Shown here in pieces: positions 22,940 to 28,800 of a stretch of 46,744 nt of DNA; position 1 is the stretch's first letter; the number at the start of each line of letters is the position of its first letter. The stretch comes from Vulcanimicrobiota bacterium (lineage in GTDB: Bacteria > Vulcanimicrobiota > Vulcanimicrobiia > Vulcanimicrobiales > Vulcanimicrobiaceae), in contig PLED01000067.1 of NCBI GenBank assembly GCA_003136355.1, positions 15,619 through 62,362 on the forward strand. Reading direction: 5' to 3'. Made by a program: the position numbers and the translations under genes. Under the pieces are notes generated by a model, which ran no database searches, had not been told where the DNA came from, and was given only the letters and a program-made list of their open reading frames with translations.

Positions 22940-23462
22940 ACCTCAAGAAACTCCGTTTGCGGGTCCCTATTGGTGGCAAGCCGCTATTTTTTTGGCGATC
23001 GCGCTGCTCGCGCAGATCGAGCTCATGCATTTCCTCACGTGGCGTCACGCCGAGCCCAGTCTGGTTTTGGTTGCCGTCGTGTGGTATGCGCTGCGCACCG
23101 ACCTCCGGCGCGCGGTTGTTTTCGGACTGATCGCGGGCGCGTGCGAAGATATTTTAGACGGAGCGCTGACCGACGCGGCAACGGGCGGCGGCTGGACTAT
23201 CGCTACGACGGGCACCGCGCTGTTGGTCGGTTCGCTCTCGCAAGGTTTTTTTGCGGACTCGATTCCGGTGCTGACCGCAGCGGTCGCAATTGGAACGCTG
23301 GTCCGGCGCCTGATCTTTTGGAGCGTGCTTTCGCTGGAGGGGTATCCGCGCGGCTACGCCGGCATTCACGCGCACCAAGCCATCTGGGAAGCGCTTATGA
23401 ACGCGGCAATCGCCGCGACCTTGATGCTGGTTTTGCGTCTTGTGGAGCGGCGTAAAGCGTGA
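22920..23462 (+). CDS. mreD: Rod shape-determining protein MreD-like membrane protein
   Basis: A 180-residue integral membrane protein with about five hydrophobic segments, standing between mreC and mrdA, the standard place for mreD. Residues such as LVLVAVVWYALRTDLRRAVVFG and FGLIAGACEDILDGALT resemble the MreD GFxxGLxxD region. TTG 22920 is the best start available and overlaps mreC by 20 bases; no ribosome-binding site is obvious. Assignment relies on hydropathy, motif and context together. Confidence 0.8.
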   Translation: MSSFRAKPQETPFAGPYWWQAAIFLAIALLAQIELMHFLTWRHAEPSLVLVAVVWYALRTDLRRAVVFGLIAGACEDILDGALTDAATGGGWTIATTGTALLVGSLSQGFFADSIPVLTAAVAIGTLVRRLIFWSVLSLEGYPRGYAGIHAHQAIWEALMNAAIAATLMLVLRLVERRKA

Positions 23463-25309
23463 TGTACCGCCGCAAACCAGCGTGGGAACGATCGACGTGG
23501 CGGATTGTGGTCTTCGCCTTCATCGTCGCGCTCGCGCTCATCGGCTTGTTCGCGCGGCTTATTCAGGTGCAGCTCGTGCAAGGCGACGCGTTTCGCGCGG
23601 CGGCTCAGGAAAATCAGATCAGGCTGATTCCGGTTGCCGCGCCGCGCGGCTCCATCGTTGATCGCAACGGCAATCCCATCGTCCGCAGCCGGCCGTCATT
23701 CGTCGTCGCCGTCATTCCGTCGGAGCTGACCGATCTGACAACCGAGCTCAAGAGCGTGTCGCAAGCCATCGCCGTTCCGGTCGAAAAATTGCGCTTCCAA
23801 CTCTTCAACCATCACGGCGTCAGTTACAAGACGTTCGACGAATTGGACGCAAACGAGCCGTACGGCCCCGTCATCATCGCCAGCGATCTCTCCGTACAGC
23901 AGGTCGTCAAACTGACGGAACTGCTTGTCGATCTGCCGGGCTTCGACGTCGAAGCGCAAGCCGTGCGCGACTATCCGTACGGCCCGCAAGGTTCGGCGTT
24001 CGTCGGTTACGTTGGGCAGATCAGCGAAGACGAGTACAAGGCGCTGCGCAATCTCGGTTACTCGCCCAACGACGTGATCGGCAAAGACGGACTCGAGTAC
24101 ACCTACGATCGTTACTTGCGCGGCGAACCCGGCGGACAGCGCGTTGTCGTCGACGCGCAAAGCCAAGTCGTGCCTGGGATAAAACTTCCCGCCAAACAGC
24201 CCGTTGCAGGCGATACGCTCGTGCTCAACATCGATTGGCGGCTGCAGCGCATTGTCGAACGCGCGCTGGCCAACGGCATCCATTCATGGGCGGGCAGCCG
24301 CTCAGGCGTTGGCGGGGCCGTGGTCGTCGAGGATCCTTGGACGGGCGCGATCCGCGCTATCGCGAGTTATCCGAGCTTCGACCCGAACGCGTTCGCATCG
24401 AACGACTACAAAAAAATAGCGCACTATCTCATGGCAGCTCCGCCGGCGCTATTCAATCGTGCGATCGGAGCGGGGACACCTACCGGGTCCACTTTCAAAA
24501 TGGTAACGGGATCCGCCGCGCTCACAACCGGCGTCGTTAAAGTCAACGAGCCCGTCTACGACAGCGGCGCGTGGAACTGCGGTGGCGCGATCTTCCGTGA
24601 CTTGGCCTCCGGAGGTTTAGGCTCGACGGGATTCGTGCGCGCGCTCGCCGCGTCTTCGGACGGATATTTCTTTCAAATGGGCTGGCGTTTAGGTAACGCG
24701 CGCTTGCGCAAGTACGCGCTGGCGTTCGGGCTCGCCGCGAAAACCGGCATCGATCTTCCGGGTGAATTCGAAGGCAACTGGCCGACGAATGCATCGATGC
24801 TCAAAAGTTCCGGCCTTCCTTTGGAACCGTCCGACGTTTGCAGCTTAGCGATCGGCCAAGGCGCGATGCAAGCCACGCCTCTGCAGATGGCAAACGTGGA
24901 GTCCGCCGTAGTCAACGGCGGCACACTTTACCACCCGCATATCGTCGGCGAGATTCGCGATCCGAACGGACGCGTGGTGAAACGCTTCGCGCCACAGATC
25001 ATCCGCCAGGTTCCCGTAACGCAGGACGCGCTCAAAGCCGTGCGTCAGGGCATGGATGAAGTAACCGATCCGGGCGGCACCGCCTACGGCTTGGCGATTA
25101 CGGGCTTACCCTATGGCGGAAAGACCGGCACTGCCGAAACCGCCGGCGGATCGGGACCGAACACGACGTGGTTCGTCGCGTACGCGCCCGCCAAACACGC
25201 AACGATCGCCATGGCGGTCTTCGTTGATCGTTCCGGCGGCTACGGCGCGCAGGTCGCAGCGCCGATCGCGCGCGCGATCATGGTGCAGTATTTCCATAAA
25301 AAACCCTAG
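23459..25309 (+). CDS. mrdA: Penicillin-binding protein 2 (elongasome transpeptidase)
   Basis: Class B PBP that cross-links peptidoglycan during elongation. It has 616 residues: membrane anchor about 18-40, dimerisation/pedestal domain to about 250, transpeptidase domain after that with SxxK at S344-T-F-K347 (TGSTFKMVTG), SxN-type motif SSD near 398, and K555-T-G (GGKTGTAETAGG). The junction GTGATG allows a GTG start at 23459 (GTGA overlap with mreD) or ATG at 23462. rodA, the usual partner, is not adjacent. Its last codons AAA-AAA-CCC-TAG are part of the left arm of the long structured element downstream. Confidence 0.95.
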   Translation: MMYRRKPAWERSTWRIVVFAFIVALALIGLFARLIQVQLVQGDAFRAAAQENQIRLIPVAAPRGSIVDRNGNPIVRSRPSFVVAVIPSELTDLTTELKSVSQAIAVPVEKLRFQLFNHHGVSYKTFDELDANEPYGPVIIASDLSVQQVVKLTELLVDLPGFDVEAQAVRDYPYGPQGSAFVGYVGQISEDEYKALRNLGYSPNDVIGKDGLEYTYDRYLRGEPGGQRVVVDAQSQVVPGIKLPAKQPVAGDTLVLNIDWRLQRIVERALANGIHSWAGSRSGVGGAVVVEDPWTGAIRAIASYPSFDPNAFASNDYKKIAHYLMAAPPALFNRAIGAGTPTGSTFKMVTGSAALTTGVVKVNEPVYDSGAWNCGGAIFRDLASGGLGSTGFVRALAASSDGYFFQMGWRLGNARLRKYALAFGLAAKTGIDLPGEFEGNWPTNASMLKSSGLPLEPSDVCSLAIGQGAMQATPLQMANVESAVVNGGTLYHPHIVGEIRDPNGRVVKRFAPQIIRQVPVTQDALKAVRQGMDEVTDPGGTAYGLAITGLPYGGKTGTAETAGGSGPNTTWFVAYAPAKHATIAMAVFVDRSGGYGAQVAAPIARAIMVQYFHKKP

Positions 25310-25488
25310 CTCTTAAATATAAGGCTCGCCCACGCACCGGTTCGCACGGCTCTGAATTCACCGCGAAGCCATGGATGGCGAGAGCGGTCTGAATTCAGGA
25401 GCGCAGACGGGCACATGGACGTGCCCGGCAAGTGTCCGTGAGAACCGGTGTGTGGGCGGGCCTTATTGTAAGAGGCTGAGGGTTTTTT
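25298..25488 (+). ncRNA. Long structured RNA/terminator with two ANGGAN hexaloops (candidate CsrA-type sponge)
   Basis: Seen in sequence: A6 at 25298-25303 pairs with T6 at 25483-25488 as the end of a 17-bp outer stem with two single-G bulges (25474, 25478). After a small internal loop a 25-bp stem (25319-25343 with 25442-25466) has only two non-Watson-Crick pairs, both G-U on the plus strand. A G-A mismatch and 5 more pairs follow. Inside are two hairpins. One at 25352-25398 has a GA-rich internal loop and GCC-AUGGAU-GGC; the other at 25408-25427 is GGGCAC-AUGGAC-GUGCCC. Both loops are ANGGAN closed by C-G, the CsrA/RsmA site shape. It overlaps the ends of mrdA and the convergent gene, so it is at least a bidirectional terminator. 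Confidence 0.72.
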
Positions 25489-25867
25489 CGATCCGTTCCG
25501 CACGCGCGCCGGGATGGCGCTTGACGTGCGCGCGCACGCGCTCGGCCGCACCGCGCTTTTCGAGAACGTGTGCAGCCGCGAGCGCGACCGGTTCGGACGG
25601 ATCGTCTAGCGCGTGTACGAGCAATCCGTCGGCGCGTTCGTCATGCAAATCGGCAACGGCAAAGACCAGGTCGCAGCGCGCAGCTTCCGAGAGTGTCGCG
25701 AATTCTTCGCCCGCCTGCGCGGTCCAAGCGGTGTCGGGCTTCCACGGATCGTTCGGCGGCAGCTCCGGCTCTTCGATCGCTTTGCGCTCCGGCGAGAGCC
25801 ATGCATACAAGCCAACGCAGATCGCGACGGCGACGATGATCAGCAGTACGATGACGAGCGCGTTCAC
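25463..25867 (-). CDS. Small membrane-anchored protein with HEAT-like helices
   Basis: A 134-residue protein. Residues 4-22 (LVIVLLIIVAVAICVGLYA) form one membrane segment at the N-terminus, followed by an acidic-proline linker (EEPELPPNDPW) and a helical region (ARCDLVFAVADLHDERADGL, DDPSEPVALAAAHVLEKRGA) that looks like one or two HEAT-type repeats. GTG 25867 makes a GTGA overlap with the stop of the large repeat protein, so the two are translated together and probably work together. Its stop lies in the right arm of the structured element. No family recognised. Confidence 0.7.
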   Translation of the reverse strand: MNALVIVLLIIVAVAICVGLYAWLSPERKAIEEPELPPNDPWKPDTAWTAQAGEEFATLSEAARCDLVFAVADLHDERADGLLVHALDDPSEPVALAAAHVLEKRGAAERVRAHVKRHPGARAERIEKTLSLLQ

Positions 25868-28800
25868 GCGCGCGTGGAAATCTGCGCGCAAACCACGTTG
25901 AGCGCCGCGTCGAGCACCGGATAGGGGCGCCGCTGGAGCGCGTCGATGAAAGCGGTTTCGTCGACGCCGGCCAGATCGTCGAGCGACGTGATGAGCATGC
26001 GCCGGTAGTTCGCTTCGGCGTCGGATTCGCTTGGCATCAGTCGCGCGAGCGCCGCCCACGGCAGCGCTGTTGCCAGCGGTGCGGCTTCCAAGCGCGCAGC
26101 CAGTGCGCGTAATTCGCCCGCATCGCAAGCTCCGCGCAACATCGTGGCGCCGCTCGAAAGTGCCGGCTGCCCCGGACCGAGTGCGTTCAACAGCGCGACG
26201 ATCCCCGCGCGCGTTCCGGAGCTTTCTAGGTCGCGCGGCGCGATCACGTAATTCGGCAGGCGCAACTTAATGAAGAGCCGGTCGAGCGTCTCGCGCAGAG
26301 CGTCGCGAACTTCTTCGAGCGCGGCTTCATTTGAAGAGCCCGCCTCGTCGGGGAAAAACGCCCGCAGTGCAAACATGTGACACGTCAATCCACCGAAATG
26401 CGCTTCGGAAAGAAACTTTAGCGTCCGGTCTAAACGGTCGCGATCGAAAACCGCAACCGTTTCGACGACGTGCGCCTCGTCGTCGTCGCCGGCGTGTCCG
26501 TTGCCGCTCGACCCGAGCGAAAGTACCGACGTTACCGAAGTTTCGCCGCGCGCGACCGGCATCGCCGGCGGCAGCTGAACGAAACGCTCGTTGACATCGG
26601 GCAGCGCGCGCTGTCCGCCCGCAAACGCCGGACCCAACATGCCATCCAACCCGAACGGCAGTCCCGCGATTGCGTTAGCGAAAACCGGCGAGCAGCGGAC
26701 CTTTAGTTCGGGCGCGGCGATTTCGTCCAAACGTTCGCCGTCATAAGAAATGCGCGCAGTGCGAATAAGCGTTTCGCCCGAAGACAATCCGTTGTGCACG
26801 ACTTCGCGCCACGAGATCGCCGCCTCGACTCCGGGGTCGACGTCGCTCAGCATGATGCCCTGTTCGCTCGTGAGCGGAGACTGCGCGCCAATGTCGCGCA
26901 CGGACAGTTCGTTCACGGTCGTGCTGTTCGGAACGTAGATGAGCTCATCGAGCGAATCGATGGAGATTTTGACGCGCCGTGCCGGTCCGTCGCCGCCGTT
27001 GCGCACGTGCAGCACGAATTCGACTTCGTCGCCAGCATCGGCAACGTCGGCTGGTTCGCTGTGCAGCGTGCCGACGGAGAAGTTCGGTTCCGCGGTAGTG
27101 ACGATCGTGAGCCGCGTCAGCTGCACCGGCAGCATCGCGTCGGCTGTAAGCACTGACTCTATCGTCACCGGATACGCTTTGGCCAAGCTGCGCAAAAGGC
27201 GAATGCCGAGCTTCGCTTCAACCGTTCCACCCGGTCGGATCTCGCCGAAGAGCAGTGCCGACCGCTCGCGTGTCGCGCCTTCGACGCTTTCCAGGCGCGC
27301 TTCCGGCGACACGTACAAACGCAGACGCACGTTGTTGGCGATGTCGGTGCCCTCGTTGCGCAAGCGCACATGCACTTCCACGAGCTGATTGGGGCGGAAG
27401 ACGTCGTCTTGCACGAGCTGCAGCTGCGATGTTTCGGCCGAGAACGCCGGATGCGACTCGACGCGCCAATTCGCTTCACCCAAAACGACCTCGCCCGCCT
27501 CACGCGCGTGCATCGACCCGCCTAAACGGATATCGCTGCGGTTAGCGTAGGGCGTGCGCACGCGCGCGCGCACGGTCAGGCGGCGTGACGTGTACGGATC
27601 GATTTTTCCCAAGTCGACTTCATCGCGATCCATTTGTAAACGCACGGTCTTATCGAAGACGCGGACTTCGTCCAGCGCCGGATCGAGCACTAAGTGCAGC
27701 CGCGCGTCGGTCGCCGGCGCGCTGCCGTCGTTGCTCAACAGGATCGTGGCTTCGCATTCGTCGGACGGTTGAACCGAGCTGCCGCCGACGCGCACGATGC
27801 GGTTGTGGCGCGCGGAGAAACGCGGCTGCGAACGCACTACCGCCGAGCATTCGAAGTTGCGCTCGCCTTCGGGTGCCCAATTCAGTTTCGCGCGAACCGG
27901 CAGCGACGTTCCGTCGGCAATCGGCGAAAGCACCGCACCTTCGGCCACGAACTCGACGCCTTCGCGCGCGCCGATCGCTCCAAGATCGAAGGTGAGACTC
28001 TCTTTCTTGCGTTCGCGCAGCGGCTGTCCGTCGATGCGGAAACTTCCCCGCACCGGCATCACGTGGTCCGGAAACTCCAGCGTGAGCGACACGTTTTCCG
28101 CGGTGGTCGTGCCCGCGTTAAATGCAACTGCCCGCACGACGATGTGTGAGCCCGGCGTAACGTCGTACTCCGGTTCGACGGTGACCGATGTGCGGTCGTC
28201 TTCAAAATCGGCTTGCGCGCGCACGGTCAAACTCGCCGGATCGACCGCGAACGCCGCCGTTTCTTGCGATGCGATCTGCGCGCGAGCGACGATAGCGGTT
28301 CCGTCGGCGAGCGGATCGTCGACGCGCACGCGATACTGCAGCGTTACCGTGGCGCTGGCCGGCAGCGACGGCGCAACGATCGGAGCATGCACGCGATCGA
28401 ACGACGCCAGCAGCTCCCGTTCGAACTCGCGCCCGTTGACGCGGGCGGAATTCGGGACGTAACTCGTATGTTCGGGAATGGGCGCGACGACGACGACATC
28501 GTGCGCGCTGGATTCGCCCGCGTTGTGAACGCGGACCGTAACGTTTGCTTCGCCTCCCGGCGCGGCGCCGCCGGAGGCGCCATGACGCGTTTCGATCGCG
28601 ACGTTGGTCAGCGCATTTTCCAGTGCCGGCCGGCTGTGAGCGACCAAGCGGACGACGTTCGATCCCACCGGAGCGAGCTCGAACGCGGCGACCGCGGCCT
28701 GCAACTCGACGGTGGAACCATTTTCGATCGCACCCGCGACGCTGTACGCAATGTCGATGCGACGCTCTTCGGCGGGCGCGACATCGCCGATCTGCGCCCC

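Follow-up and report, generated by a model that had tools for sequence, protein, structure and literature searches.

A dispersed hairpin element distantly related to TwoAYGGAY RNA is a probable CsrA-binding decoy in Candidatus Eremiobacterota

The 3' end of mrdA in a member of Candidatus Eremiobacterota lies within a 191-nt hairpin (positions 25298-25488 of the 46,744-nt stretch of DNA analysed here, referred to as the window), which is probably a decoy that binds CsrA. On balance, we favour the view that this hairpin is one copy of a TwoAYGGAY-like module that has spread as a palindromic insertion, and whose RNA would present two sites to CsrA and, jointly with the other copies, serve as a decoy or a local landing site. 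A preliminary description of the window had read the hairpin as a CsrA sponge belonging to the mrdA 3' end. The CsrA part of that reading is plausible and strengthened: csrA is present, the loops are conserved and the closest Rfam family had independently been proposed as a CsrA binder. The element is, however, not special to mrdA.

The window stems from a genome of 2.5 Mb (G000), in which the identities of mreC, mreD and mrdA were supported by Pfam (Table 1). Since the mrdA frame contains both the A6 run, which encodes the last lysines, and the stop codon, and since the convergent minus-strand ORF stops at 25463 within the 3' arm, the ends of both coding sequences form part of the outer stem. 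The hairpin begins with A6CCCTAGCTCTTA and ends with AGGGTTTTTT. RNAfold gave -120.5 kcal/mol for the plus strand (z -12, equalled by 0 of 200 shuffles) and a weaker -108.4 kcal/mol (z -12.5) for the minus strand. That is, the giant hairpin with AUGGAU and AUGGAC loops is real. Its closing stem comprises 18+25+5 = 48 pairs in the minimum-energy fold, close to the roughly 47 first counted, and the outermost 18 bp include A6 and U6. Within the 25-bp section, the two imperfect pairs are indeed G-U on the plus strand only and become A-C on the minus strand. In hairpin 1 the loop is presented as GCC-AUGGAU-GGC (25368-25379), which RNAfold draws as a UGGA tetraloop with an additional A-U pair, otherwise equivalent to the hexaloop. 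The match of the second loop to the ten-position CsrA/RsmE-type consensus was confirmed (ACAUGGACGU). A scan of 25000-25900 for sigma-70-like promoters found none.

Table 1. Features of the mrdA 3' region (window coordinates)
Feature	Position	Strand	Basis
mrdA / penicillin-binding protein 2, downstream of mreC, mreD	23459..25309	+	PF00905, PF03717
Host terminator stem, 5' arm (A6CCCTAGCTCTTA); final codons and stop of mrdA	25298..25315	+	Fold; equivalent arm lacking the insert in G002
Putative inserted element, missing at the orthologous site of G002	25316..25461	+	G002 joins 25315 directly to 25462
25-bp outer stem of the element, 5' arm	25319..25343	+	Fold
Hairpin 1 with conserved GNA/GNGA internal loop	25351..25399	+	Fold, alignment of copies
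Loop 1, CATGGATG, presenting the CANGGANG motif	25370..25377	+	Loop alignment
Hairpin 2, GGGCAC-AUGGAC-GUGCCC	25408..25427	+	Fold
Complete ten-position CsrA/RsmE-type site, ACATGGACGT	25413..25422	+	Sequence match
25-bp outer stem of the element, 3' arm, overlapping the stop codon of the convergent ORF	25442..25466	+	Fold
Host terminator, 3' arm with T6 run	25469..25488	+	Fold; T run broken (TTTCTT) in G002, G005, G006
Convergent ORF, no Pfam match	25463..26128	-	ORF call, Pfam search

Comparison of orthologous sites points to an element that moves. In the sister species G002, a plain short terminator (CATAAAAAACCCTGACTCTTATTGTAAGAAGCTTAGAGTTTCTTCG) occupies the mrdA site and the 146 bp between 25315 and 25462 are absent. 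The sister species G006 carries the same element and G005 carries it with the core inverted, with AUGGAU and AGGAC as hairpin 2 loop variants in G005 and G006. In each of the four sister species possessing the mrdA site, the outer stem there resembles a terminator. The pattern is most simply read as insertion of the element into a pre-existing terminator loop, although a precise loss in G002 could have left it as well. At a second site (G005:C6), five sister species are empty and lack the whole hairpin including its ~30-bp arms, and at a third the core is flipped between G000 and G002. Neither of the two resolved sites (mrdA, G005:C6) shows a clear target duplication, with the borders left ambiguous by the palindromic flanks. 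The idea that the locus-specific arms are palindromes which pre-existed at the target applies to the outer host stem of the mrdA site, whereas G005:C6, where the arms are absent too, contradicts it. Since the inverted copy in G005 would place the loops on the transcript of the convergent gene, the element is unlikely to be linked specifically to cell-wall genes. With dispersed copies, an empty site in G002 and an inverted core in G005, the claim of an RNA peculiar to the 3' end of mrdA is not supported, and a unique mrdA sRNA is ruled out by the scattered related copies.

We found about 100 related copies across Candidatus Eremiobacterota, all in draft genomes and many at contig ends. A covariance model of hairpin 1 (R1) matched 23 of 60 relatives (E<=0.01), and in the phylum 33 of 149 genomes contained matches (E<=0.001), with a maximum of 13 per genome. 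The genome of the window has five copies by model and a sixth (C45:14414-14585) detected via RF01731. Many scattered near-identical copies, as a sign of a MITE/REP-type element, had been named beforehand as evidence against the sponge reading; this outcome was partly found, in the form of scattered related copies. Most copies have a long outer stem, the sequence of which is locus-specific, and most lack a T run after the stem. By rough scoring of gene context, 22 of the 42 classifiable copies lie between convergent genes and 3 between divergent ones, a noisy measure that misclassified two known convergent sites and left half of the copies unclassified. Exact matches to a 23-base core were found outside the phylum as well, in Leptospiraceae, a Deltaproteobacterium, Marinobacter, Marinobacterium and other Proteobacteria, and these leptospiral and proteobacterial forms have a second GGA hairpin on the 5' side (GAACAUGGAUGUUC, CCCACAGGAUGUGGG, GGCCAGGGAUGGCC). 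A search for relatives of the proteobacterial form among annotated phages and plasmids found none, and a literature search judged by titles and abstracts yielded no relevant published use of GCCATGGATGGC.

Several individual copies deserve mention. In G002 and G003, a copy immediately precedes a gene taken to be atpD from its translated start and appears to lie within the ATP synthase operon (L167 1501-1661; also L046, L115, L116, L108); related copies seem to occupy the same site in G006, G000 and G005. The sixth copy of the window's genome (L166 1501-1672) is free-standing; its loops are AUGGAU and AUGGAC, and a strong terminator, separate from the element, lies downstream. Of the copies in that genome, it is the strongest candidate for a stand-alone sRNA. 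A different REP-like repeat (CCCTTCGAC...CTCAGGA) has been inserted within hairpin 1 in G002 and G003 (L039, L050, L186), in L039 and L050 at the identical point after GCCATCCATG. An identical 340-base stretch bearing the motif was found in Marinobacterium litorale, Marinobacter lutaoensis and an IMG/VR viral contig (L064, L069, L071), which suggests recent transfer or contamination. At the end of G000:C37 (L003 1958-2238), a perfect palindrome with ~94-bp arms surrounds a copy; we excluded it as evidence, since it extends as far as the end of the contig and could be a fold-back created by assembly.

The loops were conserved in relatives while the stems changed with compensation, as had been asked of a CsrA ligand. 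In loop 1, the C, A, GGA and G of CANGGANG were invariant in all 55 distinct ungapped copies, an invariance that is partly ascertainment as the search model was trained on GGA-containing loops; the N positions varied (T/C/A and T/G/C). A shorter form, CAGGATG, in which the first N is missing, also occurs, and one copy (L140) lacks the A. In Pseudomonas putida, CANGGANG is the bound Rsm motif (PMC6849547). The inner stem GCC/GGC was replaced by GAC/GTC and GGC/GCC, that is, with compensation. Covariation greatly exceeded that of shuffled and slid controls in each of the two alignments examined: in the first, which was fitted to the structure, 73 cells had changed on both sides versus 21.7 in shuffles (score 0.333 versus 0.062), and the second, which was not, scored 0.569 versus 0.130. 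Long inverted repeats can, however, covary without selection through templated (quasi-palindrome) correction. The outer arms of three apparently orthologous copies (L102, L106, L114) differ yet stay complementary (for example, GCGGCCAGGCC/GGCCTGGCCGC versus GCCTTCGGGTC/GACCCGAAGGC). Hairpin 2 is the fairer test of GGA conservation because it lies outside the search model. GGA was present in 37 of its 79 best loops, versus 12.8% in shuffled sequence, and was kept on stems of unrelated sequence, among them CATTTTTACA/TGTAAAAATG and GGCGCGC/GCGCGCC. About half of the hairpin 2 assignments are without GGA, some by automatic mis-parsing and some by true loss (ACGAT, ACGAG, ATGAG).

The search for csrA, on which the CsrA reading had been staked, was positive. 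The genome of the window encodes a canonical CsrA (PF02599, 89 bits) with the key RNA-binding residues L4, R6, V42 and R44, as in the E. coli protein. A 59-aa ORF at L004 1489-1668 encodes an Eremiobacterota CsrA. A further CsrA-like match, sub-threshold at 25 bits, lies within a 159-codon open frame of the same genome (G000:C26; L005 1416-1532). Among high-quality genomes (completeness >=90%, contamination <=5%), csrA was present in all 22 that contain the element (E<=0.001) and in 42 of the 63 that do not; Fisher's test gave p 6e-4 by genome and 0.04 by genus, with genera collapsed by hand. As relatives are non-independent, this co-occurrence is no more than suggestive. One genome without csrA (G015, 97% complete) gave a single weak match (E 0.0016) with ACGAG as the hairpin 2 loop, and five more element genomes without a csrA match are all 56-86% complete.

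We then compared the element with known RNA families. No Rfam family exceeded its cut-off in the window, and a search with TwoAYGGAY (RF01731) did not list the window copy at E<=10. The best sub-threshold matches to RF01731 were sister copies at 35.2, 34.4, 32.6 and 28.6 bits (gathering cut-off 43), three of which were also matched by our R1/R2 models. R2, a second model built with the subfamily of the window left out, recovered the window copy at E 1.8e-11, Leptospiraceae copies at E 5e-14 and 1.5e-12, and proteobacterial copies at E ~1e-7 to 3e-5. The architecture corresponds to that of TwoAYGGAY. Both AYGGAY terminal loops occur in the window (AUGGAU, AUGGAC), and the same pair in the C45 copy; they are enclosed by an outer stem, of 48 pairs here and long in most copies; and a tandem-GA-type internal loop, a TwoAYGGAY trait of one stem (PMC4333381), is recognisable by sequence as G-N-A opposite G-N-G-A, near-invariant in 55 rows. 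The shared architecture, at scores below formal membership, makes the element a putative distant relative. The TwoAYGGAY motif was presented without a function in 2010 by Weinberg (PMC2864571), and Gardner and Eldai (2014) proposed it as a CsrA-binding RNA (PMC4333381); in the literature searched we found no experimental test of this hypothesis.

From these data, we infer a module consisting of a long, poorly conserved outer stem around two hairpins with A(N)GGA(N) loops, which would have dispersed across Eremiobacterota in the form of a small palindromic insertion and, here, have entered the loop of a terminator common to mrdA and the convergent gene. Read-through from mrdA would produce the plus-strand RNA, the two loop sites of which could be held by one CsrA dimer. 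As each of the roughly six copies in this genome offers two sites, modest titration of CsrA would be possible; alternatively, CsrA may exert its effect on the carrier mRNA. More tentatively, the element could be mobile with a CsrA decoy as payload: it would spread, settle in gene ends and terminators and give rise to read-through transcripts that bind CsrA, so that titration is distributed over the copies instead of residing in one sponge gene.

Many copies, the empty sites at mrdA (G002) and G005:C6 (five sister species), and cores flipped at two orthologous sites would also be expected of a selfish palindromic repeat of the MITE/REP kind that has no CsrA role, its GGA hairpins being conserved for a moving enzyme or a DNA-binding protein that recognises the folded strand. 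We nevertheless regard this as rather doubtful, given that invariant and free loop positions coincide with the CANGGANG RNA motif, that hairpin 2 keeps its GGA on unrelated stems, that the element co-occurs with csrA and that the G-U pairs favour one strand as RNA. Conserved loop letters likewise go unexplained if the hairpin is a two-way terminator, or a protector of mRNA 3' ends, of convergent genes with incidental loops. Such a role would suit both the excess of convergent over divergent neighbours in our rough scoring and the terminator-like outer stem at mrdA in 4 of 4 sister species with the site, but most copies lack the T run after the stem and several lie upstream of atpD, apparently within an operon, which makes it very improbable.

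The same atpD copies, in G002 and G003 and in related form in G006, G000 and G005, bear on how CsrA would be used. Together with the type Cis-reg, which Rfam assigns to TwoAYGGAY, they argue for a cis-acting site at which bound CsrA controls the stability or translation of the carrier mRNA instead of being titrated. Insertion sites differ among species, however, and gene ends are preferred to gene starts in the rough scoring of context, so that an exclusively cis-acting site seems unlikely.

TwoAYGGAY has been an RNA of no known function, for which CsrA binding was put forward as a hypothesis in 2014 (PMC4333381). Our analysis places a relative of this RNA in an uncultured phylum, adds loop-specific constraint, covariation and a test of csrA co-occurrence for a TwoAYGGAY-like RNA, and shows such an element apparently inserted at the ends of genes. 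Were this confirmed, the element would represent a CsrA-binding RNA outside the Gammaproteobacteria and a route from repeats to regulatory RNAs.

With REP and MITE repeats, the element shares that it is short, dispersed and hairpin-forming and that empty sites exist; it differs in its strict loop motif and csrA association. The sponges CsrB/CsrC and RsmX/Y/Z contain many sites per RNA and have a dedicated promoter. They resemble the element in presenting GGA in hairpin loops and in the likely ligand CsrA, whereas here we found two sites per copy, several scattered copies and, by the sigma-70 scan of 25000-25900, no promoter-like site, which is not the organisation of a CsrB/RsmZ-type sRNA gene. 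For Bacillaceae-1 RNA (RF01690), CsrA binding was likewise proposed from two loop motifs (PMC4333381), but its match here is at chance level (12.6 bits, E 6.8). Closest is TwoAYGGAY (RF01731), with two A-Y-GGA-Y hairpins in a poorly conserved outer stem, a tandem-GA-type internal loop and the CsrA proposal in common; what sets the present element apart are its scores below the cut-off, its many dispersed copies with empty sites in Eremiobacterota, and the position of the window copy inside a terminator.
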